Origin: Undaria pinnatifida
Taxonomy: Eukaryota > Sar > Phaeophyceae > Laminariales > Alariaceae
Assembly: GCA_012845835.1 (NCBI GenBank)
Contig: JABAKD010000016.1
Span: 7,399,919-7,463,918 of the forward strand
Direction of reading: 5' to 3'
Length of the DNA stretch: 64,000 bases
Part shown: positions 1,250 through 63,601 of the stretch, in pieces
Layout: every line of letters starts with the position of its first letter
Numbering within the stretch: position 1 is the stretch's first letter
Position numbers and translations under genes: made by a program
The notes under the pieces: model-generated
The model's input: only the letters and a program-made list of their open reading frames with translations
What the model was told of the DNA's origin: nothing
Databases searched by the model: none

Positions 1250-1399
1250 GCCCTCGAGACGGCGCGAACCGCCAACCGTAGGCTTAGGGAAGAGATTAAA
1301 GCGACCGCGGAAGAGCTAGCGTCATCGAAGACGCAGCAAGGAGAAAACGCCAGGAGACACAGCCAAAGCCTGGTAGCTGCGAAGTCGGCCCTTGACGAG
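1250..1399 (+). CDS. Coiled-coil gene, exon 1 of those visible
   Basis: Acceptor is the first AG after a pyrimidine-rich tract (1165-1230); donor is GAG|GTGCGG. Encodes 50 residues starting ALETARTANRRLREE, phase 0 at both ends. No start codon fits, so earlier exons lie upstream of the window. Confidence 0.7.
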
Positions 1400-4300
1400 G
1401 TGCGGCATGCGAATAACTTGAATCGCGCCGATCCCAACATTCGCGTATGATTACCCTTTCGGGCGTTGCTTTGTGTTTTTGAGCAGCGTATTTTAGTGAT
1501 TGGAATATTTTTGCGCATGGTTCGACGGACCATGTGCACGCGTGCACATACGTGACGATGGATGACAAAATCATTATTATTTTCGGGCGTCGGGCTCATA
1601 CGCCTCAGCCGGACAATGGAGGGCCGTGCGAACGTACTGAGCGCACAATCAGCTGACAACTCGGTGCGTTTTCACCTCCTGCCGCCACTGCTATTGCACT
1701 TTCACACGATGCATGCATGACATCGATTTCTGATCGTTCTTGCCGAACCCACAACACAACAACATCGAACGTGTAAGCATAATAATCAGGGGGTCGAGCG
1801 ACAGATGAACCGGAAACCATGCAGCGCAAAAAAATACCGTATCGAGAGCACAACAACCAGATAATGACTAATTCCATTCCATTCGTTTTCACCATTCACC
1901 GCTCCCTTTTTGTTATTTTCACCTCGACGCACGGCGGCCTCGTTTTTTTTTTGTTTCTGCCGATAACACAACATCAACTAAACAAAAAGTCTGACGAGGC
2001 TAAGCGTAAGCAAGGAGTGGAGCAACAGATGCAGCTCCGAGCACAACTGCTCAAGACGGGCGAAGTGCAACGTCAACTTATGATGCTCCAAGACCAACTC
2101 GCCGGTGAGGACGTTTACCCACAGAGACTATAACCACGGCAGGTGGGGAGAGATACGCCCACCACTACCACCCCTGCTAACAAATAAACCTAATGATTTT
2201 TTCTTTTGACTTGCAGGGCGAAACACGCGCTTCCGATCGAATGGTCGCTGTCGAGCGCCTCGGGCAAAGGCTGGCGTGTCGTCTCCCCGAATCCAGAGAA
2301 AAAATAGTTAACCGCGGATATAAAACTATCCCTTTCAATACGATAAATTGATACTTCGAAGTAGCTATACATGAAAGTAGGCAAGGAGAGGAGCCCTTGA
2401 GAAAAGAAATTGGGCAATGGTTTGGCGGAGAGTCATGGAAGAGATACTACTGCAGGCTGTGCGGAAGGACTCGACTTCTGCAATATCGGAACGACATCTG
2501 CGCTACGTTGTAGGAGGGCAAAAAATAGCAACAACTAATGGAATTATTTGGTAATAGTTGAAAATTAAACTAGCAAAAAAAAAAACCCGGCAATTTTCCT
2601 TGCAGGGCAAAAACGTGATTCCGACCGCATGCTTGCCGTCGAGCGCCTCGGACAAGGGCTGGCGAGGTGGTCCAGAAACAGGAAGGCGTGTGCCCTAAGT
2701 CGCATCTTCGCGGGGGCGGCGATAGTGGCCGCCGAGAACGATGTTCGCGAGCGTACGTGCCGAGCACTGAGGGAGGCCGGGGAAGGGGCTTGTAGGGTCC
2801 AGCAGGCTGCAGTCGAGGTAGGTCGAAGGTACCGGAGGATGCGACGCGAGCCGACGAGGAAATATAGGGCTGAAGTCTTCTCGCGATTAAAAACGGAAGC
2901 GCGCTTACGGTAGTGGGCAGGGGGGAGAAATGAGAGCTCGCTTAGAGACCCCGGATCTGAGTTGCTACGACTAGATAGAGAGGGAGGCAGGGAAAAGGAG
3001 AAATAAAAAGTGTGAAGATAGCAGATGGGATGAGCAACACAAGCGCCGGACGGGTTCAATGTGGGCATGTTCAACGGGTTATTGCTTCTGTGTTGGTCAA
3101 CCGGTAATGTGCGGCAACGCGCTTGCTTCAGCGTCTACCGTTTTTCTCGCGATCAAAACAAGGGCACATGCCATGGTGGGGAGGGTGGAGAAGGGACTGC
3201 TTGGTGAACTCGGATCTGAGTTACGTCTAGGGAGGGAGAATGAGAAATTAGGAATGCGAAGATAGTAGATGGGACGAACAAAAACAAGAAAGAAAAAAAA
3301 ACTATGCACGCACTGCGCTTCCAGATTCGTAGTGCTGCAGACTCTTTCTAGACGGTTGACAATATCGCGAATCTCTCGTTTTTGTGTCGATATAAATAGC
3401 TCCCCCTCGGAGCGGGCTAAACGTTTTTGTTAACGAATTTCTCATTTGTGCATCTGTACCGTATACTAGGTCCAAGGCGCTCACGCTGTGCTGGCCATGG
3501 TCTAGCTTGAGAAATTGTCTCAGCGAGAAATGAATCTGCAGTATTTTACTGACGACCGACAAAAAAAAAAAAACGCAATTATTCAGGAGGCTCGAAGAAA
3601 GTGCGCGCTTCTTGCCAAAGAAGAGTTGGCGGAGGCTGAACGAGCGTTTGCGGAAGAGCGGGGGGCACTTCTCGAGGAGGCGGACGCGGCGGCCGCTGTA
3701 GCAGCGACCCAAGTCCAAACAATAGGAGAGCTAAGGACGTTGGAGGCGGGGACGAGATGGGAGCTCGAGAAAACCAGGCGGGAACAGCGAGCGAAAGCAA
3801 ACGCCCACTTACATTATTTGCCTTTTAATCATCACATTCACGTTCCATTTTCTGGACAAGCCGTGGTCACCAGGTGTTCCCTCCCCGGTATTTGCGTTCA
3901 TTTTTATCGCGAAAGAGCCAATAAGGCCTCTGTGCTGCGACCAGCCAGAGACTCCCACCCAGGGTTTTGATTTTTTGCTGTTGATTCTCTGGCAATCAAC
4001 GCGGCAACTCGTCGCAGAGAGCAGGCGCCCCCGTAAAAAAAAAAACACTACCAAAATGTATGCAGTTGTAGGCGGCACACCCCGCCACCAACGATGGGCG
4101 GGCCGGATGGCATGTTTTTTACTCTGACCTCCTTGTGCTGGTCGTGCTGCCGTCGGGTATCCTATGGCGATCACGGAGTATCCTCACCCTCATTCCCCAA
4201 GTAACATCCAAAGGCTTTTCTGAAAAGGGGACGCCCTGCCGACGTCCCTTCTTTTTCTGGTTTCAGACGACTGTTGCAGCATTGCGACGTAGCTTAATTC

Positions 4301-7300
4301 GCATCTGGTACTTGTAGTTAGTGCGGGATCAATGAGGCCTCTCTGCGGCGGCATGAGATCACACCCATACCCGTTGCCGCCCCTTCCCCATTATCCCCAT
4401 TATCTCCATGTCGTCCCTCGTTTGTGTCGACCTATGAAAGGGGATTGCTTCTCTTCCTGGTTATCCCTAAACGTCTAACCGAGCATCCTCGGGGGTCGAT
4501 GGTTGTCCCGATCACGCATATCACATTCACTAGAAATAATAAGGAAACCAAGGAACATCAACACAGGAAACCGACGCGCAAGGCGTACCTCCTTTCTGTT
4601 TGCATTTCCAGCTTATCATCGACCTAGTGAACAAAAACATCCCCCCTCCCTCACACAATGGCACAGGGCGGAAGCTAAGGAAGCTTCAAGGAGGCACCGA
4701 GAGCAAGCAGAAAAAGCGGCACGGGAAGCCGAGGAACAAGCCAGAGCGAGAGTGCAGGTAGGACACCGGAGGGATCTACTTTCCGGCCATACCCTTCACA
4801 TACCGGGTAGCGATATAGACACACCGCTAGCTCAAACACGAGCTACCGATTCTACAGGTTTACCGCTATAAATAGTACCGAAGTAGCCTTTACTCGGTGA
4901 CAGCTCGAGCGGCAAACCCCGCGCAGAGAAAATTCAGTAGTTGTAACTGATTGCCTCAACCGAACCATTTGTTACCGTTCGCTGTGAAACAGTAGAATCC
5001 ATGCTTCATGAGAAAAAAGAATGGACGCGGCCTTCGGTGTGATCGTTGTTGCACTCCTCCACCACGAGAAACGTTCCCCGTGTAGTCTCAATTTGCAAAG
5101 TTAAGCAAGACCACGGGTAACGACGAAAAGACAAGCAAGACGCATGCCACGGAGAGTACACTATTTTGTTTCTGGAGCTCCTTATGCGAGGAGGTCCATA
5201 CCTCACCCAAAGCCTGTTTGTGAGCAGACCTTAAGGGAAATCTGAAGAAACAAAACCGTGGCCGAGGTTTGCAGAAACGACCAGTTCGCACGACGAGAAA
5301 TGTTCGATTTCCGACGAGTTTTGGGTTAATGAGCCCCGCCGTTCAGAAATTAATTTGGCCAAAAAGTATCCTACGCATGCGTGGTTTGGTTGACAATTTT
5401 TGCAACACCTCCTTTGCTGGCGAGCTCACATGTTCACTTATTACGTGAAATACTACTTACAAGGCTTTCCCCCGAAATTTCCACGTCGTCTGATCCACCT
5501 GAGATGTGAATGGATGTTGTAAGGACGGGCGTGTCCCCACCTTGCAGCCAAACTCCTTGGCGGCCGCCCTTGCCGTCCCTCCGTACCCAGAACCCAGGTC
5601 CAGGAGAGTGCACGTGTCGGGAGCGAGACCGTTACCTCTATCGTGGCACGTGTCGCGAAAAACGTTGCGCCCTCGGAACACTTGGTCATGAGCAAAACAA
5701 AGTTTATTGGCCGGAAAATCTACGATTTTGGTGGGATTCCAATGAAGGATATCTGAGAAATCGACTGGCTTTGACGCCCTCCCAACCCCCCCACCCGCAA
5801 TCCCCCCCCCCCCCCCAACTCCCACCATCCCCACCGCCCCCCCCCACCGCGCTCTACTCTCCTGGTTATGTTGTATTGCAATGGTGACTGTCCCCCCCCC
5901 GCCCCCGTATTTTGCCGGAGTACAATGACGATTGTCTGACGAAATCTCTGCCCCTCCTCCCCCTTTATGGTCCTAACTTTTTTGGGACTTCAGAGGGAAG
6001 ACTGACGAACGTAACTAACGATTGCAGCATCCTTCACACGAAGCTACCTGGGCTGACGCCGCTAGATTAGCTGACGACGATTTTACGGTCGAACTCCAAC
6101 GCCAGAAGTACCTTCACGACGTGCGCACGCACAGCCTGCTTGCACTGCAATGTGCTGCATGCTCGCACCACGATAAGAACGCGTTCATGCTTTGGCCGAC
6201 GGACATGCATGGCACAATGAACCCCCCCTCTCCCCTCCCCCTCTCCCCCCCCCCCCCCTACAAAGGCTACGGTTAGGGGGTCGCTTTTGGGACGTTCTTT
6301 TTTGTCAGTCGCTCGGGGTCACCCGCGCGAGTGACCTCCGTGTCCCTAGGCGGTCTAAAGCTTTCGTTCGTGCTGTGTTAATTTTGCGACGTTGATCCGC
6401 AATGCCATTGTTTTCTACGCTGTGAGGTACAGATTCACTAACCCGGCAGTGATTCAAGCCCGGCAGCGAAGAAAGAGGGGGTATGTCCATTGCTTTAGCC
6501 TTGTCCCTCCCCTCCCCTCCCCCCCCCCCCCCAACCATTTTTTCATCGTGGGTGGCAACTAACCATTTTTTCATCGTAGGCGTTGCCACTCTATCCCACA
6601 TGGAGTTAAAGGGGAAGGAAATAAGATAAGCAAACAGTTTTTATGTCATATGTGGAAGAAACGTACTCAGCGCCCATTTGTTGGAGGTGTCTTCATTAGG
6701 AGTAGGAACGGTGCTCCGTGTCCAAAGGGATGCGTGGTCAATGGTCATATGGCTAAGGCAAGCAGCAAATGAGTACGCCCCCCCCCCCCCCCCCTTTCGT
6801 AATCTTTGTGGCATAATCGGCATTGAAGGCGGCGATCATCAGTACCGAGGAGGCATGTTTAGAAGCGAGCAAAACGGCCAAGGAAGAAGCGGATGAAAAG
6901 TGGAGGGTGGTTCTGCGCGAACATTTACAAAAGGCGGGGGAGGAGGCGGCGGCGGCTGCGGCAGAAGCCGGCTTGGAGCACGACTCGCTCCTGGAGGAAA
7001 CACAGCATGCGTTTCGAATGTAAGCAAAGAAGTGGAGGAACACAGCGTTCGTTCCGAATTTGATCTTGAGTGACGGAATTGAACAAAACCCTGTACTGAG
7101 CCAGTCTTACAGGGGGGAGTTAGAACACGCATGCCTAATCTAAGGTCACCACTTTTGCAAGGAGACACAACATGCACGCGTTCCAGGAATAAAATTATTG
7201 CACGAGTTGACAGAGGCATAGAGGAGAGACAACACGCTGTTTATGCTAGCGTAATTGCAGGAGTGGTGACCATAATAGAGACGAAGCGCAACATGCGTTT

Positions 7301-9858
7301 CTCTAAATGTATTTTTTATAGGTGACAAAAATAACTGAGCGATAGAAAGGCATGCTGCGTTAGAGGTAGTCTCTCATTTCAGGTTCTTCACTTGATGAGC
7401 TCTATACCTCACAAAAAAAGACCTCGAGCAGGCTGAGAAAAAATATCCTCGAAGCCCGATCCGCATTGCCATGGGCTAGATATCTATTACGTGTAAACAA
7501 ATAAACGTCGGATCCAAATGCATGAGGTCGCTTTTTGATTGAGGGCTTCCATTAGCGAGGTTTTCTTGGGCTAGCAAATTGCAACCCTCACCGAGGCGCG
7601 GCTCAAACTCACCCTACCCCCTCTCGTTCGCGCACCCCAACCAACAGAGCAGCGCGTAAGGCTCCGCGAAGAAGCTGAACTCCTAGCCGTCGCCGCAACC
7701 GAGTAAGGCCGTAAGTGAAAGCATCAAACCCCCAATGCTACCCTACCCTACCCTACAACCCTACACCCTACGTCTTACTCACCCCACTCTACCCTCCCCT
7801 ACTCTACCCTAGCCTACCCTAGCTCAGCCTACCCTGGCTTAGCCTACCCTACCCCACCCTTCCCTACGCTACCCAAACCTTCACCTCCCTTACCCTAGCC
7901 CATGCTACCCTACCCTACCCTACCCTACTCTACCCTACCCTACCCTCTCCTACCCTACCCTGCCCTACACTGCACGATTTACTTACCCTACCCCACCCTA
8001 CCTTACCCTACCCTGCCTTACCTTACTACCCTACCCATCCCACCCCCCCAGAGAGCGCGTGAGACTCCGCGAAGAAGCCGAACTCCTAGCCGTCGCCGCC
8101 ACAGAAGAAGAGCGCAAGCGAGGCGTTCAACGAGAAATAGACGCCCACGCCGCAGGAATCGCCGAAGCCTCCAAAGCAGCCGCCCTAACCCGCGAAGAAG
8201 ACAAAAAAGCGGCGGAAAACAACCTCTCAGAAGCGCTAGCGGCGGCAGCTGAACGCGCTAACACCGCGGCACGAGAAGCGCGTTTGTTGGAGGAGGAGGC
8301 GCGAAAGGTTTCCGCTATGGAGGCGGTAGCAGAGAGGGAGGAATTAGAGAAGGAGCTGGCGGAAGCGCGGGAAAGGGCGGTGAAATTGGAGGGGGGGAAG
8401 TGGCAGAGGGCGTCGGAGGAGGCGGAGTCTCGTGCCGCGGCAGAGCAGGTGTGATGTATGTATTCGTTGTACGTATGGTGGAGCATGCTACGGCAAGAGT
8501 AGTCCTTAAATTTTGTTAGGCTTCTCTCTTGAGATAAAAACGCCTCATCCAATTAAAAACTTCCGTCGCGCCTGGGTTTACAACGAAAGAAATTGGGTAA
8601 CACGCAAAATGAGACCCCCACGATAGGGTGTTTGCGATTTTGCCAACTTTTGGTTGGGTGAGGAGTTGGGTAGAAAAAGCATGTAACATATAGTATTGAA
8701 ACAGTCGAACGTCACAATCCAAGGCCAAATCTAACCCAAACCCAAACCCAAACCCAAACCCACGAAAAAATTAGCGAAACAAATGGGTGGGAGAAACGCG
8801 TTTTTCCTACCATTTTTTTTTTGGTTTTTCAATCCTAACCTAATTTTGTCGTGGGTTGGTCGACCTTGAGTTATACGATATCCTTCGGTTTCAACACTGC
8901 GATTTTACACCTTTTTCAACCCAACAACGGTTGGAAGTCGCAAACACCCTAGTAGTCCCAAGCAAAGATGTCAGGAGACGGCAACTTTGACCCCTTGACC
9001 GACGGCAATTTCACAATGATTTACCTTGACTGACGCCAAACTACTAGGTTTTAGTGTGGAACAAAGATGTCAGGAGACGGCAACTTTGAGCCCCTGACCG
9101 ACGGCAATTTTACAGTAATTTACCTTGACTGACGCAAAACTACTAGGTTTTAGTGTGGAACGAAGATGTCAGGAGACGGCAACTTTGACCACTTGACCGA
9201 CGGCAACTTTGCAATAATTTACCTTGACTGACGCCAAACTACTAGGTTTTAGTGTGGAACGAAGATGTCAGGAGACGGCACTTTGAGCCCTTGACTGACA
9301 GGAATTCTCCAACAATTTACCGTGACTGACGCCAAGCTACTAGGTTTTAGTGTGAACGAAGACGTCAGGAGACCGCACTTTGACCCCTTGACCGACGGCA
9401 ATTCTCCAATAAATGAGGAGACCTGTCAACCAGAAATGCTTTGGTCAAAAATCCCTAATAAATCTCTATCTCAGCACGCGTCTACCCTCATGGAGCAACC
9501 CCCCCCCGGCCCGTTGATCACCCCAGGCGGCCGCGTATGAGAGGGGGGTGGTGGACCGTGGGCGAAGGGCGGAGCTCGAAGCCGCCCAGCTGCAAGACGC
9601 TGCGGAAAAAGCCCTGGAGGAGGTCAAGCAGGGGGCAAGGGTTACCATCGAGGAGATGGTGGCTCGACACTCTGAGGAGGTGGAAGCCGAAAACAGGTGA
9701 GTGTGACTGGTCCGCCTGCTCATTGTACCCGACATTCATTTCATTTCCAACCCGGGAGACGAGTGCATAGACTAACTTTGTAACTTTTGTCGTTCCTTGT
9801 AAATGCACAGGTGGTCCAGGCTTCTCGTCAATATCGAAAAGTACCCAATGGATACAGT

Positions 9859-9890
<32 letters not shown>

Positions 9891-12800
9891 AAAGTTGGGG
9901 GGGGGGGGGGGGTAAAGCTGGGGGGGGGGGGGGGCGTACTCTTTTGTTGCTTGCCTTAATCATTTGACCATTGACCGCGCATCCCTTTCGAGACGGAGCA
10001 GTTGGGGGGCGGGGGCGGGGGGGGGGTTAGCTATTTAAAGTCAATGCAAGCAGTTAGTTTATTTTCCGTGCATGAGGGAGACGATATCTGACGACAATGA
10101 TTACTCCCAGGGCGATGTTACCGGTATGTCACCGTGTACGTGTACGATAGAGGTATACCGTTTTTTGGCGAAAATGGTTTCTGAATGGCGGGGGTTCCTT
10201 AACCTTAACCCCAAGTCGTCTGGAAAATAGGCGATTTTTGTTTGCATGATCTTCGTTGTACACCTAGGTCATGAGATTTTTCTTCCGGTAGTAGCAGTTT
10301 TGATTTTTGCTCAAAATCAGTTTTTGGGTTAAGAAGAGCATGTTTTAAGCCCCCAAATTGAGGAACCTCAAAAAAAAATCGGTGCCCCTCTGTCGTAGCC
10401 TGCGTCGTCTTACAAAATGAACTGGAGATTAAAAAAGCGGTGATCACGAAACAAAAAAAATAAAGCACTGCGAGAAAGAAGACAACCTAGAAATTAACAA
10501 CAAAAAAGCCCAAGAAAAGCGAAGAAAGGAAACATGCTGTATGAACGAAGTCTAATCACTGTAGTTTTGGCGGATCGCTCCTTTTTGTCGTCAGGCGGGT
10601 GCGCGAAGAAGAGGCAGTTGTGCGGGAGGAGGCAGTTAAAGCCGCGAAGGAGGAGCTCACGAAGATTCAAGTCAAGGCCATCGCCAACGTGAGATCGCGC
10701 AAAACGTTCCGTTTTTTTTTTTTTTGACGAGTTTAACGAGCGGGAGTGGGTACTCATTTCGCTTGCATGTGGGAAAAACGCAATCAATCATCATGGGCGA
10801 GTGTTAAAAAAAAACGCTATTCATGAAAAAAAGCACACACAGACAACAGATGTTTCGTTGAAACAAGCGTTGTTCGCCAACCTTAGCCCCTTCGTTGATT
10901 TAGTATTCAGGAGATTGCGTCAGCATTTTGGTTTTTGTTCAGACGCTTGCTACACGATAGAGGTGCTGTGGTAGCACTCAGGCTTTTATGCTGAAGACTT
11001 TTCTTAAAGTCGGAACTCCTCAGACCAAAAACTCCGCGTAATTTTTCGTTCTTGTTTCGCAGTAGTATGGCAATTTTTTGTTGTACCTAGGCCATTGGAG
11101 ATTGATTGCTCGTCGGGTATGCTTGTTATTTTCCACCTATAAAAACAGTTTTTCTGTGGTGATGTATAGAAAAAATCGAGTCGAGAACCTTGGAGGGCAA
11201 AATAAAAAAAATAACCCCGGAGAAAACAAACGGTGCACGTATTATACCTTGTAGCACGCGTGTCTTCGTCGTGGATTGCGAATCGTACGTTGTCGGAAGG
11301 CCAATCAGAATGAAAGAAATTTACAAAGTTCAGCATTTATATTGTACCAACCATTCATAACCTATCTTTTGGTCACGCGATTAGTGTGGCTGGTGGGTAG
11401 CGCTATGTAACCAACAGCCTATTTTTCGAGTACGTTATTAGGTGTAGGGATCGAATGTTCCGTTTAGGAAACGTTCCTGCTTTTTGGCGGCTACGGTGAC
11501 CAGGCGCGAGAAGAGGCGACGACAGAAGCGAGGGAGCGCGCTGAACGCGAGAGAGCGGCCGCAGTGGAAGCGGCGAAGGAGAGGGAAAAACTAGCCACCG
11601 ATAAGGCCAAAGACGAGCTCCGAAGGTATGGAATCGTGGGGATGTTATAACACCATGAAAACGATTCAATCGCCCGAACTCACATCTGGCGTACTACAAA
11701 ATAAACTTTTCAAATACATGGTATCATAGCACGCGCGATCGAAGTATCAAACGCAGCTTGCAAAGATAATGTTTCGACGAAACTACAGATCTCACAACTG
11801 AAGCTTACTATCTTTAAGATAGTAAAAAATGAACCCCGTACGAATCACTCTCCATCGATCTATCACACGCAGCTCGAACGTATGGGTTTCGACGAAACTC
11901 TAGATGACACAGTGTTATAAGGCTTAGTTTGGGTAAGCTATTGGTTAACCTTTTGCAAGTGGTCAAACGGACTAATACCCCACTAATTCCATAACAAATG
12001 TCATCATCGACAGACCATGGGTTTTTTAGATCGTGGCTTCGAATCCCACATCCATCATAATAAACTTTTTAAGACTTTCCCCACGTCGAACTTGAAAAAT
12101 ACTCTCCCCGGTATACCCAGGAAATGAAACGGCTTGAATATTGACAGGTCCGCCCGTATATCGTATATTCGGCCGACCTGCTATCCCGCCGTTTCAGGGG
12201 GGGAGAGTGTTGTAAGACTTAGTTTGGGTAAGCTATTAGTTAACCTTTTGCATATGGTCAAACGGACTAATACCCCACTAATTCCTTAACGACAGCTGAA
12301 GAATATTTTTTTATTTTCGGATGAAAACATCTTCAAATCCGCAGCACCCTCGATCGATCGAAGTATCGCACAACGCAGCTTGCACATGTGAGTTTCGACA
12401 AAAAAGTTCTAGATGACAGAGCTGAGTTGTCTTTTTGTTGTTTTGTATGGAAAGCAACTGCCGGTAGGCATTGCATTGCGGGGAACTCGCGCGACTTCCG
12501 AAGGGAGCGGAATGTGCGCAATTTACCTAGAAAACTAAGGCAGTAATTATTTTTCCAGCTTCTGAATCGAAACGCTGCCATTCGATGGGCTTGGTGTGCA
12601 TGGGTTGGCTAGATATATGTTCCAGATGTTGGACATAAACTTCCGTGGTGGCGGTATTCCAGCGCAGTACATTGTAGCCTGAAGCAGTTATGTCACAGGG
12701 CGTCTCAACTGTTTATCCTTGGGCATTGAGCAGACGGCGTGAACACCGATGAACAGGCGTAGTGCAAACGAAACGTAACGCGCGGAGCCGCTGTAAAAGA

Positions 12801-15800
12801 GGATACGAAGACGGTACAGACTGTATCGATTTGGACGCCTCAGGTACTTTCGGGTTCGCCTTCATTCAATCAGATTCGGAAGTGTCGAAGTATGCTATGT
12901 CTATATCGTCTCCCTCTAACATCAAAACTAAGCATTGTTTTGATTGTAATTTATAACCAATACAAGCTCACCCCCACTCCTATAGTATATATTAGGCAAA
13001 GTGCTTTTCATATGGTATCCCTCGAACATTGAAGTTAGCTATTTTCCTGGAATAGGACGAATTGATTAATTTTCACAACACTACCCCTCAATATTATGCA
13101 TTTTGTCTCCTCCAGTGCCGAACGCAACCACGTAGTACCAGGTGTTACTTAAGAGATTAATTGTACCCCCCCCCCCCGTCTTGTATTTATGTCGTGGGCT
13201 TCTCTGGACCGTTTTTGGTGTATTTTCCACAGCGCAAAAACAGAGTGGACCGCAGAGAGACGTCGGCTGAAGGAAGAGCGTGCACTCTTCGAGGAGGCGG
13301 AACAGAAGGCCAAAGACGAGCTGCTTAGAGCCATGGCCAACAGCAGCCAGGTGGGTGCACCGCTATTGACAACACGGGGTGGGGTATTCATAGCACTGAT
13401 CGTGCGTGCTAACAGTACCAGGTATTGATTTTTTTGTTCTTGTGACCAAAGCTACGGCAGGGGTCGATCACCCATAATAACAACAAGAGATTCGCACAAA
13501 GTAGAAAAAAAAAAGAAATTGCCGTATTGCTCTTCAGCAGAACGGAAGTCTTTTTTTTTCTGTATAAAATAGCTACCATGCCAGTTCAGCCATATTGCGC
13601 GCGGGCTGGGCTCCGGGCTTTTTTTGCCCTCAGCTTTGCGCATACGAAAAGTATAGCGCAAGCGAAGTGTCATTGTCGAAAAAGGCGGCGCGCGCACTGT
13701 TTCGATACGTCGGCAAAAGCCAGACTTCGTACGTAGCCAAATTTATTTTTAGAGCACGTTAAGATTTCGGCAGCTGGCATACCGTCTCCGTCGACCATCA
13801 AAAACAATTGTCTTGACATAGTAGGAACTAACTATTGATAAATCTAACCATCCCCCCTGTATCTTCGAAATCGTCTCCCCCGAAGAGGGAAATTCAGTAG
13901 GCATTCACAAGCGCACTATAGCAGTGAGGGCCCCACCTTATCGCGGTCCCTGTTAGTGCGGGGGTCCCACTTTAATGCTGTTGAAATACGCAATCTCTAG
14001 TCGAATAGGGAGGCTAGAATAATATTTTCACCTCTACACTACGGTGGGGGTCCCGCTTTAGTGCGTGCGGTCTATTGTCTCCCCGATCATCGAAGAATAG
14101 TTAATAAACCACATATGGGACGGTAGTCCCTTCGCAGGTTATCTTCCGTATAATCAGGTGTGGAGACACGCCGAAGTGGGTTATGTGCTTAACCGCACTC
14201 TCGAGGAGTCATAATAGTCTTGAAGGATTATAGTGATAACAAGGCGGTACGATCTGGGAAATAGGGCCTGGTATCCACATCACCCCCCCCGTTTTCAGGC
14301 GTGCAAACGTGCGCGTCTTATAAGAGGTGTTGACTTGGGATTATAGGATCCTAGGAATTCTCAAAACGATCTAGAGAATAGGGCCTGGTATCCACACAAA
14401 TCCCTAATGAAATAATTTGTGAGTACCCCTAAATGTTATGCCTATAGGGGAGTAGTTCATACTCAGTTTAACTATCTTCTGTTGCACTCACCTCTATACC
14501 CCATAACCTACGGCCTTTCGTGAATGCTGTTATCGCCATGTGGATCTTTGCAAACTCATGTGGATTATCACGAATGCGGTTATCGCCAGGCTACTCAGAG
14601 GGCCCGAGCCAGGTGGGAAACGGGCCAAAAGATGGCCATGGAGAAAGCCGCCGCGGAGGCGGTCGAGGAAAGAGAGAAGGCTCTCGAGGACGCGCGACGG
14701 GTAAGTGTATCCATAGCTCTCACATAATCAAAGTACGAATATATCAACATATTCAGGCCTGTATACAAATAGCGGTAATAGATATTTTAGTCATGTCACG
14801 GTTGGAAACGGGGCAGAAGGTGGCCATGCATGGAGAAGGATGCCGCGGAGGCGGTGAAGGGGGCAAAAAAAAACTCTAGTACGGAGGACCATAGCAACTA
14901 GGACCCACAATATACACAAAAACTTGTACATTCCCCTGTTTTTCTGAACCATATTGGGTCCTAATTAATGTGCTCCACCCGTAATAGAGGATTGGCGATG
15001 GGCAAGGGGGTCGAAACATCCTATACTACGCTACACTGCTCTAACACGTGCTACGATAGGACTAGCACTTTGTGGCCATATTATTTTTCTCGCTGACGAA
15101 CAAACTCCACAATATCGTTCGAGTGCCGTACATGGTTTCCAATAGTATTCGTTGCATACCTAGGCCGTGGGGGAGTTCAATGGGGTTTGCATGGTTTTTG
15201 TGGGTGGGGCGTAAGAGCTTCTAAAATGAGGAAACCTCAGAAAATATAAGGCAGATGGTCCAAGATCTATCGTAGCATGCTTCCTTCCTCTCTGTACAAG
15301 TATCTTCCGCTGGATTGCAATGCTCTTTCTCTCTCACCCGGAAGGAGCTGTTGGACTGGATAGATTGCCACCGCCCAAAGGTGTTGATGCATTAAAAAAT
15401 CGCAACCAACGTTGACCATACGAGCAACAGGGCTTCTTTCTGTGAGGCACCAAGCCGTAAAACATCCAGCCTTACAAACGTGGCTTATGCATGAGCACCG
15501 CCCACCTTACCCTTCGGGTTGTCCCTTTTCCCAATGTAGAAAATATACCATACTACTTCGAAGCAGTTGGTCCCTCAAAACGCATGTGCAATTCTAAAGG
15601 GGCTACGCATAGGCGCGTGGTACGATAGCGGCATTAATACTTGTAGAACATTTTCGCTGAAACTTTTCCGAATGAAGGTGCTCCTTAATCGTTTTTAGAG
15701 CCCGGGTATAGCGATCAAAGACATAGCATGTGCGATGTTATCCACTGTTTCCGTCAGTACGCAGCAGCACGAATGGAATCGTGTCGTGCACCTTGTAGCA

Positions 15801-18800
15801 TTACTGCAGTACGGACACGAAGTGCATTACCAATATCCAAGCAGCCCACGTTGCTTCGGATGGTCGATGCCGTAAAAACGTCGGTTTTATTCATTTTTGT
15901 TGCTCTGACGTCTCACGGTTTTTTTCTACAAATATATTCGAAAATTCGTTCTGTTTTTCTACATACAGCATATTTCGTTGCATACCTATTAATACGCTAT
16001 TTCGTTGTATACCTATATAGGCCATGTGGTTGTTCATCGGGGAGTCTTTCTTCGGTAGCTCCCCCAACCTTTCTTTAACGAAATCGCCGGTTTCAAAATC
16101 AGCTCCCGGTCGTATCTCCTGAAACACGGTGTCCCTCGACACCCCGACGTCATCGATCGACAGGCCCTTGCGCACAAGAAAACATATACGTGATACTTTA
16201 TTTTCGATTGTATCCTTCCTTGTGTCGAGCAGCCATGAAGCGTCCGTGAAACAAAACTGCTGTTTTTTTTGGGGGGGGGGCTATCGTAGAATCAGTCCGG
16301 GAAGAAAAAAACAGTTTAGTCTAAAATCAAATCGTTTTTGGGGGGTGAGGTAAAGAGTACTTTATCAATCATTGTTATCAAGCCACCACCTTCAGAAGGC
16401 GAAAAAAAGTGCCAGTGCACCTCTGCCCTAGTAGTATGCGTCATAGGAGAAACGCTGTTCCGAAAAAAACATTTTGCTTTGCTTGACCAGGCGTCCTTCC
16501 CAGCAAAAAAAAGTGAGCTCCGCATGAAAACCAGGAGGCGTTCGCCGTCAATCCTGCGTTCCGTGGCATGTGCGCATGAGCACCGCCCACCCTGCCTATG
16601 CCATTTTAACCGTACGGGAAAACGCTCTTGCCGAAACGCTTCTCGCCTGACCCCTCCCTGCTTTTGATTTTTACCCATCGTACGGGGAAATGACGTATCG
16701 GAACACGCATTCCCTGATTTTTGCTTGACCCCAGGCGTTCGCCCGAGAAAAAAAGCGAGCACTTTTGGAAAACCAGGAAGCGTTTACCGCCCAGGCCGAG
16801 GCCATGACAGACAGGCTGCAGAAGCAAGCGAACGCTTCTTTGCAGCAGGTGAGGTGTTTTTTGTTGTTGAACATTTTTAGAATTTGAGAAAAGCGTCCTA
16901 CTCTATTTTCAAGTATTTTCTCCCCCAAAAAACGTGTATACAGCAGTTTTCTAATCTTTCGAGGCAACATACATATTAAGGGCTTTTCTTAACGAACACA
17001 AAAAACGTCAGGGTTCCTGATAAAAAAAACGTGGCGTTCTCGCGAAAAGTGATATTTGTCCGGAATCCGGACTTTGAATAATTTTTGTTCAACATCCATA
17101 AAAATTGATTTCAGGATCCCTGGCAAAAAAACGTGACTTTTTTATTTTTTGGAAAACGTGACATTTCACAATTTCAAAACGTCAGGAATCGTGACAGTTT
17201 TGTCAAGGTTCGTGATTTTTTTTTGCGTTCGTTCAAGGAACGACCCTAGGCAGAGCTCACGATGCACTTAAGAAGCCAACATACCCCCCCACTTTTTTTA
17301 CAAGCTATATTTTGCTTATGAATACGGTCTTGGCCCCTTCTTACTGCGGTGCCTTGGCATATAACAATACCTGCAATAACGTGCGACCCCGCACTATAAC
17401 GGGATAGTGCAATACGCTGCAACACGATATCGTGGCAAGCGATTGCCACCGCACATCGCTAGAGGGAACCGCGCTAGCGCGGGACCGCGGCTACACTATG
17501 TTCCTACGTAAGCGAGGCGTGTTAACGTGGTTTGCCAGTCCATCGCAATTGAAGACCAGCCCACCTTAAAACGATCGCGGGAAAATACCAGAAAAGCACG
17601 TGACCCTTTTAGAGCCCATACCATGCACATCGACAAAAAATATTCACAAGCGCGTTATTTTACGATGGCGCGAGCGTGCAGCACGCGGCAGTGCACGCTA
17701 TGAGCGTGCGTGTCTTTACCACAGCTACTTGCACTGGAGTTCGACAGCAAAAGTCGTCGTCACCTAAACTCTAGCCGCCCGCGCATTGCTTCGTGTAAAG
17801 ACGCGTGCTACGATAGATGTGCACCACGTTTTCTCTTAATGCTACCCCTCAATTTGGGAGCTTAAGAAGATCTCTATCAAAAACTGATTTGGAGAAAAAT
17901 AAAAAATCTGAGCCGATGAAAAGTCCCATGGGGGCATAGGTACACGACGAGAGTCATGAAAAAAAAAATGGTCCTATTATCGACGATTTTGGGATAAGGA
18001 GTCCCGTCATTCAAAAACCATTGCAGACAAAAAGCGCTACCTCTATCGTAGCACGCGTCTTCGTTAAACGCTGTTATTGTCCGTTTTTTCGTTATCTTGT
18101 TCAATTTTTGCGTGTGAAGTCTGCAGCCCCCCAAAAAGGTCAATTCACCCCGTCCGTTGTTTTCCCGCTCCAACGCGTGTTACGATGAGGCTATTATTAA
18201 TAATAGACTATAGTACGTTTTGGCAAAAAAAAGAAAAGGAAAAAATGACGGGTTCTACAATACGAGAGGTAACACTTTTGAGCTAAAACGCTTTTTTCTT
18301 GAATTCCGGGGCTTGGCCTGACCCGAAATCGTTGGGAGGTTATTTTATTGTTGTGTGATCTTACGTTTTTTGGTAACACCTTCGTAGGCCTTGGTTTTTT
18401 CTTCATCGAGTTGCGTTTTCGGTTTGCTACTGAATCAGTTTATGGGTGAGGTATAGAGAGAGCTCCTGAAGTGAGGAAGGGAACCTCAGGCAATCGTTTG
18501 GTGCGCTGATGCCCGTACGTAGCACACGCCAACTACCAAATATCCTTGTGGCGGATGATATTTCGTTATATGCCTAGGCCGTAGTGTGGGATTCATTTTT
18601 TCATCGAACTAAGCGTGCCACACTTTACTCGAAAGGTGAATGTTTTGGGTGAGGAATATAAAGTGTTCATGTGAAGAAGAAAGAAACAAGATATTTCAGT
18701 GTTCCGCCTGACTCATCCCACGGTTGGGGTGCAGCGGAAAAATTTGAGCCCCTAACGTGAGGGGGCTCAATATCTCAACCAAAACATGACTCCGAAGGCA

Positions 18801-21800
18801 TTCGTTCGCACAATCTAATCAACGCGTCTATGTGCTAGTCCTGAAAACAACCATTGTACTCGTGAAAATATCAGACCAACCTATAGAACCTCACTTGAGG
18901 AGCTCAACCGGACACAAACGTTATTAGATAAACCAACAACTGCAACCCATATCGTAGGATGACTCCCCTGCCATAGCGTACTTCCCCCGGACAACGCGTC
19001 AAAGGCCTTTCTGCTGTTCCCTGTGGTTTAAACCATCAGTGAACACTGCTGTTTTTGCATAGTGCCGCACGCCGAGGAAAATGTTCACGGGTAGTTCTCT
19101 TACGCCTTCGTACAAACTTCCACATAAACATCGGACGAACTGATCACGATCTAAATGGTCTATGAACATATCCTACATATATACGGAGTATGTCGTTATG
19201 ATATGCTGTACTGGATCTGTACGGTATAGATCCATCGCCGGAAAACGTCGTGCCCTGTAACACGTCATCCGGCTCCCACCCTCCTGCACGATCCAGAGGC
19301 CAAGCGCAGATCATATAGGGTGTCAAAGGATCTACCTGCCCTGAGCGATATAGCTAATGAACAGGGACCTTATTATGTGCCCTACGAGTGCGAGCCTACT
19401 ACGACTGCCTTCTTCGATGCAGCAGGACAGCAGGATATATCATTTCTTTTTACGCGACAACAACAGCAGTAGTCGCATCCTCAAAGCATATATACATTGT
19501 CATTGCGATTCGCACGGTGTCAAGAGATTTGCTGTTGTCATGACTTGGAGTATGTTGCACGGACTACGTAGCATGACAAAAAAAAACAGAGCGTTCGCTT
19601 CGTTTTCTCGTGCAAGACTCAAGATCGCCCGCCCATCACCTACAGCAAAACAACGTGTTTACGACGCACGCTACGGTAGTGGTTCACCATGTTTTTCCTA
19701 GGGCGCCTCACTCGTACACCTCTATACCTCTCCATAAACCCCCCAAAAAACGATTCAGGCCAAAATCGAACTGCTACCGGTCGAACAAATTCCATGGCCT
19801 TGTTAGTAGCATCCAATCAATGAGTTACTGCAAAAACAAAAGGAGCAAAAAAAATCCAACGATTTTGGGTCAAAGATCTCTGTCGGAAAACGTTTGCAGC
19901 CAAGAGTGCTGCCCCCATCGAAACATGACCGCCCCCGTCCACTCCCCGACTCATTTCACCCACCCACCCACCCATCCGCCTACATCCAATTTCCGGAACG
20001 CTTCCAATGTACAGGTCAAGGATTTACACGCGGAGACGCAGCTGGAGAAGGATCGACTCGCCACGGAGCTTGCTGGCTGTCGAAAGGCGCTCAAGGTGAG
20101 GCAGACAACCCCATACCCTGGTCTGCGCTGCATACAAGTAATGTGATACAGTAGGGGTCTACTAGTAAGGCGGTGGTGTGCCAGCGCGGTATACCCGGGG
20201 AAAGACGCCTTATTCATTCCACGTTATGAGTGCGATTCCTCGGTTGCGCCAAGCCATTTTTGACCGTCTTATATAGGGATACCGCCTTACTCGGACCGCC
20301 TTGTTGGGAGACCCCTGCTGTAGAGCTATGTGAATAAGTCAATTGCGGGGGAGGGGGGGGTAATCGTGTCATGCATGGCCCTGGTCCTTGGGGCAATGGA
20401 TCTCTGCATATCTACAATGCCGTGACGGTGTAAGTCGATTTTCCACCGGACCAGACAGACATACACGTCTTGCACCAGGCGTGTTAGCGCCGTGAGGTGC
20501 TCAGCGAACCGCGTGAAAGGGCGAGCTGCATCCTACGAAGCGAAGAAACCGCTTGCGAGGCGGACTTGGGCACCTTGTGCGTACATTCCTGAGTATGGAT
20601 GACATGTCAACGGGGTGGGGCGCCGGCTTACCTATTTTTGTTTGCCTACCTTACGTAGCAATATGACCGTTGACCACGCATCCCTTCCGAAACGGAGAAT
20701 CGTTCTTACTCGTGAGAGAGAGACACCTCCAACATTTGGGTACCTGAGGTGGTGGGGGGGGGGAGGGGGGGGTTACACGCCCTCTGTTCCATCCCCTCTT
20801 AGAATTCATGACTTATCTGCGTCGTATACGTTAGTCCTGCAGCAACCATTCACCCTACACCGCGTATTTGCCGCTACCACCATACCGCATTCACCTGTTC
20901 TCTTAGCTCCCGTGGTTGACATTTATGCTCTCCTCCCCCCCACCCCTCTCTACTGCGATTCCCTACCTGCCTTCTTGTGCTTTGCTCGTTCGGGATATAT
21001 TATTTTGCTACATATATAGTGACGGGCGATAAGTCGCTTGATTCTAAGCACACGTACGTGTTTTCGTCGTACGGGACAATATCCCAAAGAGCGCATGAAG
21101 CTGCAGGAGTCCGAAAGCCACCCTCCGTGTTTTCGTACGAGCATGACGTAGACTAAACGTTTACTCCCACAGTTCAACCTAGCCTCCTGTCTCCTGGCAA
21201 TCGACAACTTTATGTGCGTCGTTTCCGCCCTTTTGGGATACATCGCTGCACACATGACGTGCGCTATGATACGACAGAGGTTTTACTGGCACTTTTTTTT
21301 GGCGTTTTTTTGCTTCTTACAATTCGGGCAGGCCCACCTTAACCCCAAATCGTCGGAAACGTCGTTGCTTTTTCTCAGCCTTGACTTTTTTTTTTCTCTT
21401 TTCTTTTTTCTTTTCTATCCTCCGGCGGATGGGGAAAAATACAGGTTAAGCTCACCACACTTCCACGTATGTTCATACACATCGTGTGTCGATTCAATTC
21501 AACTGCCTTCGCAATCCAGCGCTAGCTGGCGTGTCCTTCGGTTCCCACTATAGCGATAGCGTGAGCTGTCCCTACGGCGGTCCCTGTTACTACTCCGGCA
21601 GCGCAAGCTACAGTTTTATACGGATGCGTGAGGCTTTTTTTTTGCTTCTGAAATTACGGGCAGGTCCACCTTGATCCAAAATCGTCGGGAAAGTCGTTGC
21701 TTTTTCTCAGTCTTGACGTGTTTTTTTTTTGTATACCTAGGCCATCGGGTTGCTTTTCTTCAGTTTTTCTCTAAGCCAACTTGTGGGTGAGGACGGCTCC

Positions 21801-24800
21801 TTAGGAAAAAAAACACCTTGGTGTGCCTCTGGCGTACCGTGCGTCACGTATCGGGATCACTATTAATAGAGTCGCTTGCCGTTACATATATATATGTCTA
21901 TGCCAGCTCGTTGCGTGGGATATCGTACCGTCCCAAAACAAGGTACCTTATTAATAGCACTCATTCGAGAAAAAAGGTTGACATCCTCTTGTTTGTTGTA
22001 TCTAACCCCAACCTTAACCCAATCAAGCTTATCAACTATATGCAGGGATACTTCTCTTCGTCTCGTGTACATACTGTGCCTCGACCATTGGTATATGGAA
22101 CAGCAAGCGGTAAGTTTTGCTGTCCCAAGCAGAACGCGCTCACTGTCACAGGAGTCCGGAAATAACCCTCCTGTGCATTGAAATAGGACGCGAAAACCTT
22201 ACAATTCTCTGTCTTGCGTTTCCGTTCACTGCAGGTTAACGAATACACGCTGCTTTTTCTGCTGCTAGCTACCATGCCACATTTTGTTTCGCAGGATGTT
22301 TCACGGTCATTCCTCTTTGCACTTTGCTCGTTAGCAAAATACCAGATAAATATATATATATATATCATTCGCTACGCAAAATATTGGTTGTTGATATTCA
22401 TCCTGTCAACATCCATAGAATTCATATATATATTCAAAGGATAATACGTCTGTAGACTCGAGCGGCCCGCGTGTCACACAGCTCGCAAATATGACTATCT
22501 AGCCCAAAATTGTCGAACTCACATCTGACGTATATATTTTATTTTACTTGAAAGTATGAAAAAATGCACTTCAGCTGTGAGATCAACCAAAAATGTTTTT
22601 GATCAAACCTCAGCTTTGCAAGCTGCGTGTGATACTTCGATTGCGCGTGTGACGGAGTGTGTATACCCTCGTGAACGACAAAGGCCGGCGACCCTCCTGC
22701 TAATGCCAGGGTCATCAGGACTAAGACACTTTGCCTTGTTCTGCGCTCGGCAACTGTATAACCCACATTGAGGGGGACAAACACAGACATCTATTTTATA
22801 TACTATGACGAGCAATGTGACGATTGCTCCTTCTAAAACATGTCATGCTCGAGCTCGCCGTATGAGAACGACCCCAAATGGTCGCTTGCTCCTAAACACA
22901 CTGGTGTGCGTTTTCCGCCGTACGGGATAAAAATAACGCCTCGACCAACGCATTCACCGCAGGACTCGGAAACGACCTTACGGCGCGTTGAGGAGGACGC
23001 GAAAGAGCTATCGGTGTCGAACTCCCTCCGGCATTGGAGACTGGCCACTGCAGCCCTTCAGCTGCGCATTCAGAACAAAAAGGTGCGAGCAGGACCAGAA
23101 GCAAGGACAGGCCTACGTAGCGTGTATGTGTACGGTTCGAAGCAAGTCGATAAGGGAAGAAAATGCTGAACTCTTCTCACGATAGAACAGAAGCAAAGGC
23201 ATCCATCGCAGTGGGGATGGGGGGGGGAGTGCCCACTACGTGACCACGGGTCTGAGGTTTTGAGCGGGAGGGGTCTGGAGCTATTCGCGCAACGATGTTA
23301 GATGGAATGGGGAAAACAAACTAACAAACAAGCAAACAACATGCGACTAGATGCGACGAGTGCTGCATTTGCACCAGCTGGTGCAAGCTACCGCGGTCGA
23401 TCCCGGGCCGCTATACACTATACCAGCACAGCAGCGCAAGAACAAGTTAATTCTTCAAAGTACACTGGAGAGAAAGGCGGGTCAAGGCAAGCCTGGACCA
23501 TTACGCTCAAACATTGCAGAACATTTTTCAGCGTTCTTTCAGTGTACCACTCAACCCTTTTCCCCCTCTACCCCCCCCGCCCCCACTCGACCCTTCCCTT
23601 CTATATCGCCTCCCTCGCAGGTGGAAAAAATGAATGCACTCGAACTATGTCCTGAATTACACCAGTATGAAATAATACATTATTTCCTCCCCGCACAGCT
23701 ACGTAGACTACAAAATAATTAAATCTACGATCCAATTGTTAAATGTCTTACTAAATGTATTCCCTCCCCACGGCCACCTACTCCCTCCCCCCTCCCCCCT
23801 CTTTTCTGCGTCTTCACTTTACCTCCGCCCCCCCCCCCGCTTCACATCTTCGTGCTACCACCCCCCCCTTTTTCTACACCCTCACTCCCTCACTCTGCCC
23901 TGCCCCCCCCCCTGTTTCCACCGTCAATTTACCCCCGCCTCCCGTTCCCCTTTCTACATCCTGCCATCGAGACGTAACTGAAAGAAAACATCTGTAGGTC
24001 CATGGCCTTAAGGTCTCGGGCCATGCATCATATCATTACACTCCCCACCCCACCCCCTTCTTACGTCAAACGACTAAGACTAACAACAAATGAGTACGCC
24101 CCCCCCCCCCTTTCTACATCGAATGACTAAGACCAGCAACAAATGAGTACCCCCCCCCCCCCTCCCTCCCGAACATTTTACTCCGCACAGGGGGAATGAT
24201 CGTATCATATACTGGTAGTGTTTATGGCAATTAGGCAGTTACATGGCACTCCCATTGCTGTCTCTGGAAGTGGCCATACCGAAAATTAAATCGAGTCATT
24301 GAAGCTATCATCCATATGCAAGTCCGCCTTCCAAGGCGGTTCGTAGTAGGATGCAGCTCACCCTTCATGCGACCCGCCGAGCACCTAAGGGCGATTCGCG
24401 CTTGATGCAAGCAATGTCTGCCTGGTCGGCGAAAGCCCGGCATGCTCCTTCCCGGCATAGTAGGGATGCGAGGGTCACACCACTACGGTCGAACGACTAC
24501 GGCCATGCATGGATATCGAGTGCACCCCCCTCTCTACATCAAGTGATCAAGATAGGCAAAACAACAGTACGCCCCCCCCCCCCCCCTCTACATCCTAACT
24601 CCCCCCCCCCCCCCCCTCCCCCCCCCCTTCTTCCTACATCCTGCCATCGCGATGCGTACGAAACAAAACACCCAGTCACTGGAACATTTGCGCAAAGAAG
24701 CGGCGCAGCGGGAGGAAGAGGCCGATAAATCGTTCGAAGAGCAAAAACTAGCACTATCTGCAAACGTTGAGGAGTTGCTAGGGTTGGCGTTCGACTCAAG

Positions 24801-27800
24801 GAAGCGTTTTGCAGAGATGCAGGAGACCCTGGTCAATCACAAGCGAGAGGTGAGAACCATTAGTCGTGTACAAGGTTTTATAAAGCGGGGATTAACGTGG
24901 GGAATAAATCATTTGTCGAGGAAGGGTTAGGGAGTTGTTAAATAGTTTATTGTTTGGAGGAGCGGGTAACTAGTTCATTATTTGAGAGTTGGGGGGAGGG
25001 AGGGCGATAAAACACAGCTCGTGAAATATCTGCCACACATCTACCCGTTCGAGGGGAAAACGCAAGCCCTGCCTGCGAACTTTGAGGAATTGCATGAACT
25101 GGGGTTCGACTCTACCGGCGGCTTTGCGGAGATGCAGGACACACTCCTGGTCAACCACAAGCTCGAGGTAAATATCACAGTGTACAAAGATGTGTACACT
25201 ATGCGTTCGAAGGGCGGGGGGGGGGGGGAGGGGAAGTCTTTATCGTCCCATGGCCGTGAATCCTCGCATCCTTACGATACCGGAACGGAGCGCATCTGAT
25301 TTGCACCAAGCACGAAACGCCGTAAGAGCTGACGGGCGGATGAAGCAACCAATTGATTAACTTCAAGTTTTTTCACGGGTCATGACCCGAGCCGTCGGGT
25401 CTAGCTAGTTGGGTCGGGGCGGGTCGGGTCACCCTCTGACGCGGCCCGAGCCCCGAGAAACGACCCAGCCGGTACAAAAAAAATACCAGGGTATGTGATG
25501 AATTTTTTGCATCCAGGGGAGACGATACCGGAGTTCCATCACGGGTGGCATGCTCCTTCGTGGGGATGGAAGCATGCTGCGTCCTTCGTTCCGCACATAA
25601 TAAGCCAAAACGTTGGGAGTTGTCGGTAACCTCCCCCCGCCTAGGGCCTTATTGATACTGGTACACAAGTTTGGCGGGTACAAGACAGACGTAAAATAAA
25701 ATACCTGGTATAGAAGAAAGGGAAAGGCTGGCGCTAAGAAATAAGGTGAAAGAGGAGAAACATTTAGAGATAAACGTGGGGATTGAGGGAAGATATTGGA
25801 ATGAAAACGTACCTGCATGGCCCAATGGACTACGCAAAAAATCTGAAACTGCGATTTCGTGTAGGAGACCTGGATCTACCAGAAAGAAGAAAGAGATATA
25901 TCAGTAGTCGGGAGAAGGAGGACGCGGATGCACACGTGTGTCCGCGTGGCACAGCAATAGAGAGTAGGACTCACATCGTAGAAGAATGTGAAAATGTACA
26001 AGGAGGAACGAGATGTGTTAGAGGAAGAGATGAGGAAATTAGACGCATGTGACATGGAGGAGTTTGGTAGACTAGAGAGTAGCGAGAGAACGATCGCTAT
26101 CTGAGGAGATAGATGGTGGCCGCAGACGGCGAAACAGGACGAGGATAGGATAAGCAAACAGGTTTTATGCAATATATGGAAAAAGCGTAACGAGCGCCCA
26201 AACGTTAGAGGTGTCTCTATTAGGAATAGGAACGGTGCTCCGTCTCGGAAGGGATGCGTGGTCAATGGTCAAATGACTTAAGGCAAGGAACAAACGAGTA
26301 CCCCCCCCCCCCGGGGGTCAGGGGCGGGATTGCAGAACGCAATCAATCGTGATTCTTACTTGGCTACGATCGATACCGGATTATCGTAGCCTCCCCGCAA
26401 AAACATAGACATGCCGATCTCGCCCTGATCGAACTTACAACAAAGGTAATAATGAACCAGTTATTTTCATGCGACAAGTGATTCGAGGATTGTTCATTCG
26501 TTAATTTGGTTAATTTGTCATTTTTCGTGTTCCGGGAGACGATACTTCGAAGTATAGATTTAGTGTCGGCTTTTGGCTTTCGCCTGTGGCCCATCCTTCT
26601 ATCTACGCGCGACTCTCTCTCTACCAATGCCCATTTTTTTGTAAACCTCACGGTCATTCTCGAGCTTCTGGACAAGCCGTGGTCACAGGTTGTCGTCTCT
26701 TCTCCCGCCCGGAATACGCTCAGCCTTCATTTTTTTCGCACAGATAGTTCAGAAACGCCACTTTTCGTCGATCTTCGTCGAATTGTGCTAACTCATGCTC
26801 TCGTGTATCACACCTTCACGCCTCCTCGCTATGGCAGGTGCTAATTGACCACAAGGTGCAAAGCTCGAGCTTGCACAAGGAGCTCGACAGCCTTGCAAGA
26901 GACCGCGAACAGGTAACTGATACCTACCAGCACTATTTTATTGAGTTAGTGATGCGCGACACGCACACCACGAGACAGATGTATGTACCCAGATGTCTCT
27001 GAGGCTCCTTCACCTTCAGAGAGCGCTCCATCCATTTGCCACACCGGAAAAAAACAAACAAAAAAACTGATTTTTGATGAAAAAACCCCGCGAAAGTGCT
27101 ATATAGCAATCCGACGAGAAAGCCCTTACCGGACTGCACGAATCTTCTTCCATGAAAACGGCGAAAGTGCTACATAGCAGTCCCGTGAAAAGTAAATCCT
27201 CATGGGCCTAGGTTATACCGCAACACAAGTAAACGATATTCCAACGATGTTGGAGAATTTTGAGCATGTGTGTAATGAGGCGGTAACATCTAGGGGGAAG
27301 AGGACCTGATATCCACACAACGAAATCGTTAATTGAGGAGCCCGGCCGATCCCTGCTTAGGGGTGAAGCAGAAGTTTCCGAGCATGCTAACGTGGTTGGA
27401 GCTCGACATCTCGCCCGAATCAGGACCTTCGAAGACATCCGTTCGCGCAACCCGGCCAGTATTATATTATTTGCGCTACAGCTACAGTAGTCCTACCACA
27501 AATGGACTCGTAAAAATTTCACACTAACCGACAGTCAGGAGCTCAACCGGTCAAAAACGTTTGGCCCAGTAATGCTACCCGTACCGTGGGACGACTCACA
27601 TACACATACACCCCATCCTAGCACGCTTCACGCACGCCTGGGAATGTTTTACGACGACGATCTTGACGTGGTTATTTTCCACTTCCGCCTGCCCTGTATT
27701 TTAATCTCCGCCCTCACATTCCGGCATATCCTCCTCTATCCCCCCCTTTTTTGAATAGCACTCCCGTTTCGGCGGGAACGAATTACTTGGGGGGGGGGGG

Positions 27801-31456: not shown

Positions 31457-31638
31457 AGCCAAAGCGACCGCGCCTTCTGTTGAATACCAACAACAGAGAA
31501 GAGTATGCACGTCGTCCATCAGTGAAAAATGCAGCGTAGGTAGCAATCCGTCGTTTTTTTGAGAACGGAAGAATGTGGGGTTGCTGTTTCATGACCTGGC
31601 ATGACGAGAAGAATGCGTCTCGTGTGGTGAGACGGCCG

Positions 31639-35167: not shown

Positions 35168-63601
<28,434 letters not shown>

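Follow-up and report, generated by a model that had tools for sequence, protein, structure and literature searches.

Decayed direct copies of exon edges and intron sequence suggest recurrent short-range duplication in two Undaria pinnatifida genes

Within a 64,000-nt stretch of the genome of the brown alga Undaria pinnatifida (the whole of which was analysed and is called the window below), exons of two genes appear to be accompanied by degraded partial copies of themselves in the adjoining introns, raising the question of what process generates such copies and whether exons are its particular target. A preliminary description of the sequence had placed copies at eleven sites, and attributed them either to a recurrent short-range duplication that makes pseudo-exons and lengthens introns, or to the retention of regulatory poison exons. 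Here we examine the reality, anatomy, divergence and age of these copies, and weigh the alternative explanations against one another.

All exons examined were supplied by two genes, one per strand. The minus-strand gene, running from 63601 to 35168, is kinesin-4/KIF4-like, with its closest relatives comprising one eukprot protein together with Scytosiphon, Ectocarpus and Hapterophycus proteins (60-68% identity over 36-42% of the query). Its 20 exons used here consist of 18 from a coding and splice-site model and two added by tblastn, which also lengthened one further exon; tblastn with four brown-algal proteins supported 19 of the 20, the exon at 37344-37627 receiving no support from these queries. 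The large terminal exon (36376-35168) encodes a SAP domain (Pfam PF02037), which is likewise listed for several stramenopile relatives of the kinesin, and the 19 introns between the exons used have a mean length of 1247 bp and a median of 888 bp. For the plus-strand coiled-coil gene (14 exons used) two homology searches returned no homolog and yielded no name, and its exon limits therefore rest on coding and splice signals. Thirteen of these exons derive from the coding and splice-site model (the start of exon 24680 being set by eye), and one, 3590-3810, was taken from the list of open reading frames and has rough limits; predictions at 2080, 4612 and 24191 were left out as small or doubtful, and a first exon near 1250 also lies outside the model. 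An Rfam scan and a tRNA scan were both empty, and a phage search with one kinesin exon as query produced no match.

Each of the 34 exons (35 queries) was aligned to 600 bp of intron on either side, with simple repeats and other exons masked, and the resulting scores were compared with those from 200 distant placements per query, each at least 3 kb away. Same-strand partial copies no more than 600 bp away were detected at p < 0.0015 for nine of the 34 exons (2606, 8052, 14599, 16735, 24680, 37344, 39519, 46864 and 57504), compared with no inverted copy for any exon. At p < 0.01 the direct copies extend to 11 of 34 exons, with the addition of 38454 and 50266, and inverted copies to one of 34. 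The best cases reach p values of 2.8e-13 and below against the distant placements, none of them inverted. The local exon-edge copies are genuine, and between about a quarter and a third of the 34 exons have a broken copy in the adjoining intron. The exon-derived copies, each given with the part of the exon that it reproduces, are as follows:

2205-2283, plus strand: acceptor edge of exon 2606-2817, copied from 2594-2672, 80% identical, with a 310-bp spacer lacking similarity
7608-7718, plus strand: acceptor edge of exon 8052-8448, copied from 8017-8121, 77% identical, with an in-frame stop
14800-14860, plus strand: interior of exon 14599-14700, copied from 14612-14668, 79% identical, with a 4-bp gap
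16441-16547, plus strand: acceptor edge of exon 16735-16848, copied from 16678-16789, 68% identical, with an in-frame stop
25046-25196, plus strand: donor edge of exon 24680-24849, copied from 24731-24882, 71% identical
31670-31735, plus strand: copy of 31439-31506, 72% identical, the source being the last 18 bp of the modelled terminal exon (31331), including its stop, followed by downstream sequence
37712-37792, minus strand: acceptor edge of exon 37344-37627, copied from 37552-37637, 72% identical, the exon being the one without tblastn support
38864-38955, minus strand: acceptor edge of exon 38454-38761, middle copy, from 38709-38802
39008-39100, minus strand: acceptor edge of exon 38454-38761, outer copy, from 38706-38805, 65% identical
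39266-39343, minus strand: donor edge of exon 39519-39715, copied from 39505-39580, 76% identical
39770-39831, minus strand: acceptor edge of exon 39519-39715, middle copy, separated by 2 bp from its source block and by 7 bp from the outer copy
39839-39960, minus strand: acceptor edge of exon 39519-39715, outer copy, from 39650-39767, 74% identical
57232-57388, minus strand: copy of the donor edge of exon 57504-57742 and of intron (source 57390-57542), 71% identical
47261-47299, minus strand: interior of exon 46864-46950, a weak candidate copied from 46900-46937, 77% identical over 39 columns

Ten of the eleven sites named in the preliminary description were confirmed by the exon tests and alignments. 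Copies it had placed at 2217, 7648, 14803, 16482, 39283 and 57310 are present within the intervals given above, those at 25018 and 31639 were relocated to 25046-25196 and 31670-31735 (the latter with p 3.9e-7, and including only 18 bp of modelled exon), and those at 38808-39070 and 39815 each resolve into two copies, the outer copy of exon 38454 having p 2.4e-5. The exception is a copy proposed at 28822, for which exon 28972-29109 gave p 0.70, and with its flanks included 0.8 upstream and 0.45 downstream. Also identified were two copies that had been overlooked, one clear (37712-37792) and one weaker (47261-47299). Weak alignments at 2980, 22566, 38363, 40540, 49839 and 61742 were excluded from the copy count.

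A self-comparison of the masked window, as the preliminary description had proposed, revealed that the duplications extend to intron sequence. At distances below 500 bp we obtained 15 merged direct pairs versus a single inverted one, with offsets of 82-403 bp for the direct pairs and none at 500-1000 bp; the density of direct pairs was 0.47 below 500 bp versus 0.01 beyond 5 kb. Eight of the 15 have an exon on one side (representing seven exons, with 39519 occurring twice), and the remaining seven lie purely in introns. Exons 16735 and 46864, which pass the exon test, miss this stricter whole-window list. Intron-only features, given without strand, include the following:

8963-9412: direct array with a period of 99 bp
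11911-11995 and 12206-12290: direct pair, 93% identical
21305-21395 and 21637-21727: direct pair, 86% identical
44945-45006 and 45027-45086: pair with an offset of 82 bp
61551-61668 and 61810-61923: direct pair, 77% identical

Sequence related to the pair at 11911 was also found at 31852-31913. Random intronic probes likewise returned local matches, 41 of 340 direct and 8 of 340 inverted, in a sample where probes overlap, each intron pair is seen from both ends, and four of the 41 matches fall inside exon-derived copies. The intronic null was also looser (60 placements, with the top two dropped), and the probe figure is for these reasons not strictly comparable. The proportion among exons is still the higher one (9/34 versus 41/340, p 0.03, with unequal nulls), which weighs against a process indifferent to exons. 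Similarly, the eight exon-touching pairs exceed the 3.38 expected by random placement (p 0.008), but the expectation rises to 5.5 (p 0.14) when exon pairs are allowed double the visible lifetime of others. Exon-derived copies are conspicuous because selection holds the source exon constant, and the exon excess fits such a visibility bias, in which the copy of a constrained exon can be recognised for roughly double the time. Exon-specific targeting is unneeded once this bias is allowed for, and nearly half of the pairs contain no exon at all. Selection on one of two copies can thus make a general process look exon-specific.

Taken together, we consider recurrent, general short-range direct duplication, acting on exons and introns alike, the most probable explanation of the copies (probability about 0.7). 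The recurrent short-range duplication put forward in the preliminary description is supported by the nearly exclusive direct orientation, the narrow range of offsets, contiguity at exon 57504 and near-contiguity at the acceptor of 39519; its corollary, that the process makes pseudo-exons and lengthens introns, fits as well, with the correction that intron sequence is duplicated too. Under this model, blocks of approximately 30-160 bp (apart from the one array with a 99-bp period) would have been duplicated directly, with each copy starting 82-403 bp from its source. Some events would represent tandem duplications, including a triplication, and others pairs parted by sequence without convincing similarity. 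A block crossing a splice site would probably be tolerated, the gene continuing to work because one intact exon edge remains, and the second copy would stay in the intron and drift, with a longer intron as the likely net result. Contiguous copies may have been caused by replication slippage or unequal exchange, and spaced pairs could be either tandem copies parted by a later insertion or copies inserted at a distance.

Closer inspection of the arrangement of copies bears on the last of these choices. Two exon edges show tandem contiguity. At exon 57504, the copy 57232-57388 lies head-to-tail with its source, with one base between them, and the block includes 39 bp of exon, the donor site and more than 100 bp of intron. 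The acceptor edge of exon 39519 is triplicated in near-contiguous aligned blocks, and that of exon 38454 forms a three-copy array with 50-60 unaligned bp between copies. We applied a full-period tandem test, in which the period equals the offset, to 12 exon cases and five intronic pairs. Exon 57504 gave a global p of 0.028 and a local p of 0.025, and the donor of 39519 a local p of 0.025 (global 0.27); the other cases gave nothing below p 0.09, and the test was uninformative at 8052 and at the intronic 54121 pair, both of which are masked. A diagonal scan of 15 cases found no significant exon case and one marginal intronic signal, at 21305. Given that the rest of a longer unit lacks similarity despite the high power of the global score (0.74-1.00 under simulated decay, for a small-indel model only), a single tandem event with period equal to offset either fails at most spaced pairs or needs later large insertions. 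Tandem duplication followed by insertion, when judged by block-end similarity, gave nothing below p 0.098 among exon cases and p 0.005 for one intronic pair (14249).

The spacers themselves were also searched for further decayed copies, which are present at the acceptors of 39519 and 38454. Within-spacer copies were borderline at 16735 (p 0.004), 37344 (p 0.034), 14599 (p 0.040) and 24680 (p 0.064), and none were found in the spacers of the remaining cases; those at 2606, 31331 and 46864 share no similarity with either the block or a longer unit. The signals at these four exons and at the 39519 donor are borderline at best. The spacer in front of exon 8052 (7719-8016) consists to 97% of masked simple repeat, belonging to a CTACC array at 7738-8036. 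Of eight exonic sources, six extend across an exon edge, and each of these six has its copy on the crossed side, as tandem duplication requires; the rule is only suggestive, in that copies on the opposite side would in many cases end up within the exon itself.

The strongest alternative is that spaced pairs arose by duplicative insertion at a distance, through template switching or repair synthesis, with the tandem arrays reflecting a separate process. Most spacers indeed lack a convincing shared remainder, and the intron-only spaced pairs at 11911 and 21305, at 93% and 86% identity, show none in the full-period test, which together make this a tenable reading to which we would assign rather less than even odds. 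Against it, inverted local copies are rare, the copies keep to the crossed-edge side, and the expanded simple repeat at 8052 indicates that spacers can grow after a tandem event. The borderline signals at 16735, 37344, 14599, the 39519 donor (local test) and 21305 also point away from insertion at a distance.

With respect to general short-range duplication, the divergence of the copies is informative about their fate. Across 13 exon-copy alignments, which are partly non-independent (39519 contributes three and 38454 two), mismatches at codon positions 1, 2 and 3 amount to 38/248, 41/249 and 77/247 (0.15, 0.16 and 0.31), a third-position ratio of 1.96. This pattern is as expected of a freely drifting copy paired with an exon changing mainly at silent sites. 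Frameshifting gaps occur in 11 of the 13 aligned copies, being absent only from the donor copy of 39519 and from the short middle copy of its acceptor; in-frame stops occur in the copies of exons 8052 and 16735. A test for purifying constraint on the copies, based on the codon-position mismatches and frameshifts, came out negative. The intron parts of the blocks show 89 mismatches in 409 positions (0.22) versus the approximately 0.31 expected of two drifting copies, which is not a clean fit, local alignment favouring similar stretches; gaps are commoner there (34 in 409 bp versus 18 in 744 bp of exon).

These observations also weigh on the suggestion that the copies are poison or alternative exons, retained such that their inclusion leads to transcript decay. 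By a hand count, splice dinucleotides are kept in eight of 11 copies (AG in six of eight acceptor copies, GT in two of three donor copies), and the copy of exon 8052 combines its in-frame stop with a GTAAGT motif. However, the proportion of kept dinucleotides is about the roughly 0.7 left by drift alone, and no donor scoring above 2.5 on a rough matrix was found in any of six acceptor-side copy regions, a weak test in that nine of 28 true donors also score 2.5 or less. With mismatches distributed as under free drift, and frameshifts in most copies, the regulatory role raised in the preliminary description appears, from sequence, quite improbable.

We also considered whether the introns are young, made by tandem genomic duplication of AGGT-bearing exon segments, with the copies as traces of their origin. 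Duplication of exon-edge sequence is what this route involves and what is observed, but intron gain of this kind predicts the start of the next exon at the 5' end of the intron, or the end of the previous exon at its 3' end; instead, the kinesin copies found lie inside introns, at least 149 bp from the opposite splice site, and several carry their own intron flank, making this origin very unlikely. Chance, compositional similarity or low complexity, which the richness of the window in simple repeats (32 TRF entries of at least 60 bp, some overlapping) might invite and to which the weak candidates at 28822, 40540 and 49839 may belong, can hardly account for the main cases, which far exceed distant placements with simple repeats masked and direct orientation throughout, in contrast to the null-like scores named in the preliminary description as a refutation, and which showed no loss of signal under another mask and null.

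The age of the kinesin copies was assessed at sites where the exon differs from its brown-algal homologs. In 23 comparisons, which count the sites of exon 38454 twice (once per copy) and include no site from exon 37344, the copy shared the state of the exon in 10, that of the homolog in five and neither in eight. This small sample suggests that the duplications took place on this lineage after the split, with the exon changing later at some sites.

The copies show similarities to several known systems. Thomas and colleagues (PNAS 2004) reportedly described short same-strand local "doublets", adjacent or a short distance apart, in several eukaryotes, said to be exact matches at distances under 100 bp or near 1 kb; internal gene duplication was reportedly treated by Gao and Lynch in 2009. 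Like the doublets, the copies seen here are short same-strand duplicates of nearby sequence, but they differ in being decayed, in their 82-403 bp offsets, and in often occurring at exon edges. Copies that abut or nearly abut, as at 57504, at the acceptor of 39519 and in the intronic array at 8963, resemble ordinary tandem repeats, from which the exon-edge copies differ in having units of approximately 70-160 bp of unique sequence, present in two or three copies and diverged by about a quarter. Tandem genomic duplication of gene segments is an established route of intron gain, with new introns arising from exonic AGGT (PMC3443670); short gene segments including exon sequence are duplicated in both situations, but here existing introns acquire a decaying exon-edge copy. 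Introners (PMC9860276) similarly change intron content, but copy themselves into many genes, whereas the present copies lie, within the window, beside their own exon only. Among the plus-strand matches listed in the self-comparison of the window, exon-edge copies match only their own exon. By analogy, the process would work much like known tandem duplication and short local doublets. No description of such a pattern in brown algae was found in the literature searched, and the new element would be its frequency beside exons in this lineage, as seen in one window and two genes.

If the rate holds genome-wide, these duplications would provide a mutational source of long introns that can be counted, in a group noted for the length of its introns; averages of 588, 530 and 740 bp are given for Nemacystus, Cladosiphon and Ectocarpus, respectively (PMC6418280). 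Exon-like intronic sequence can also mislead gene prediction. A bolder proposal, which we regard as speculative and unlikely, is that in this brown-algal lineage short-range direct duplication, reaching no further than about 400 bp, occurs often enough to be a leading route of intron growth, leaving beside about a quarter to a third of exons an exon-edge fossil that keeps ancestral exon states. Were this true, new exons could be built from such fossils, which could also act as an internal clock.

Other repeats were also observed in the window. Four simple-repeat arrays, at 7738-8036 (CTACC), 50433-50772 (CTTG), 52797-53003 (CTG) and 60009-60231 (TACCC), with motifs written in the direction of the gene, stop 9-50 bp short of an acceptor in four of the 34 exons (8052, 50383, 52788 and 59962, respectively), as if they extended the pyrimidine tract. 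A direct pair at 58017-58103 and 59018-59110 (75% identical, 1001 bp apart) flanks kinesin exon 58611-58838 but excludes it. The only inverted pairs within 1.1 kb, 50980-51103 with 51353-51477 and 44322-44489 with 45292-45472 (74-75%), may both be remains of mobile elements, and the intronic probes flagged inverted matches near 8830-9085, 17535 and 17962. Distant introns of the same gene share repeats at 79-84% identity (6621-6787 with 26145-26312; 41605-41851 with 53302-53552), and one repeat, at 5979-6193 and 51553-51760 (71%), is common to introns of both genes.
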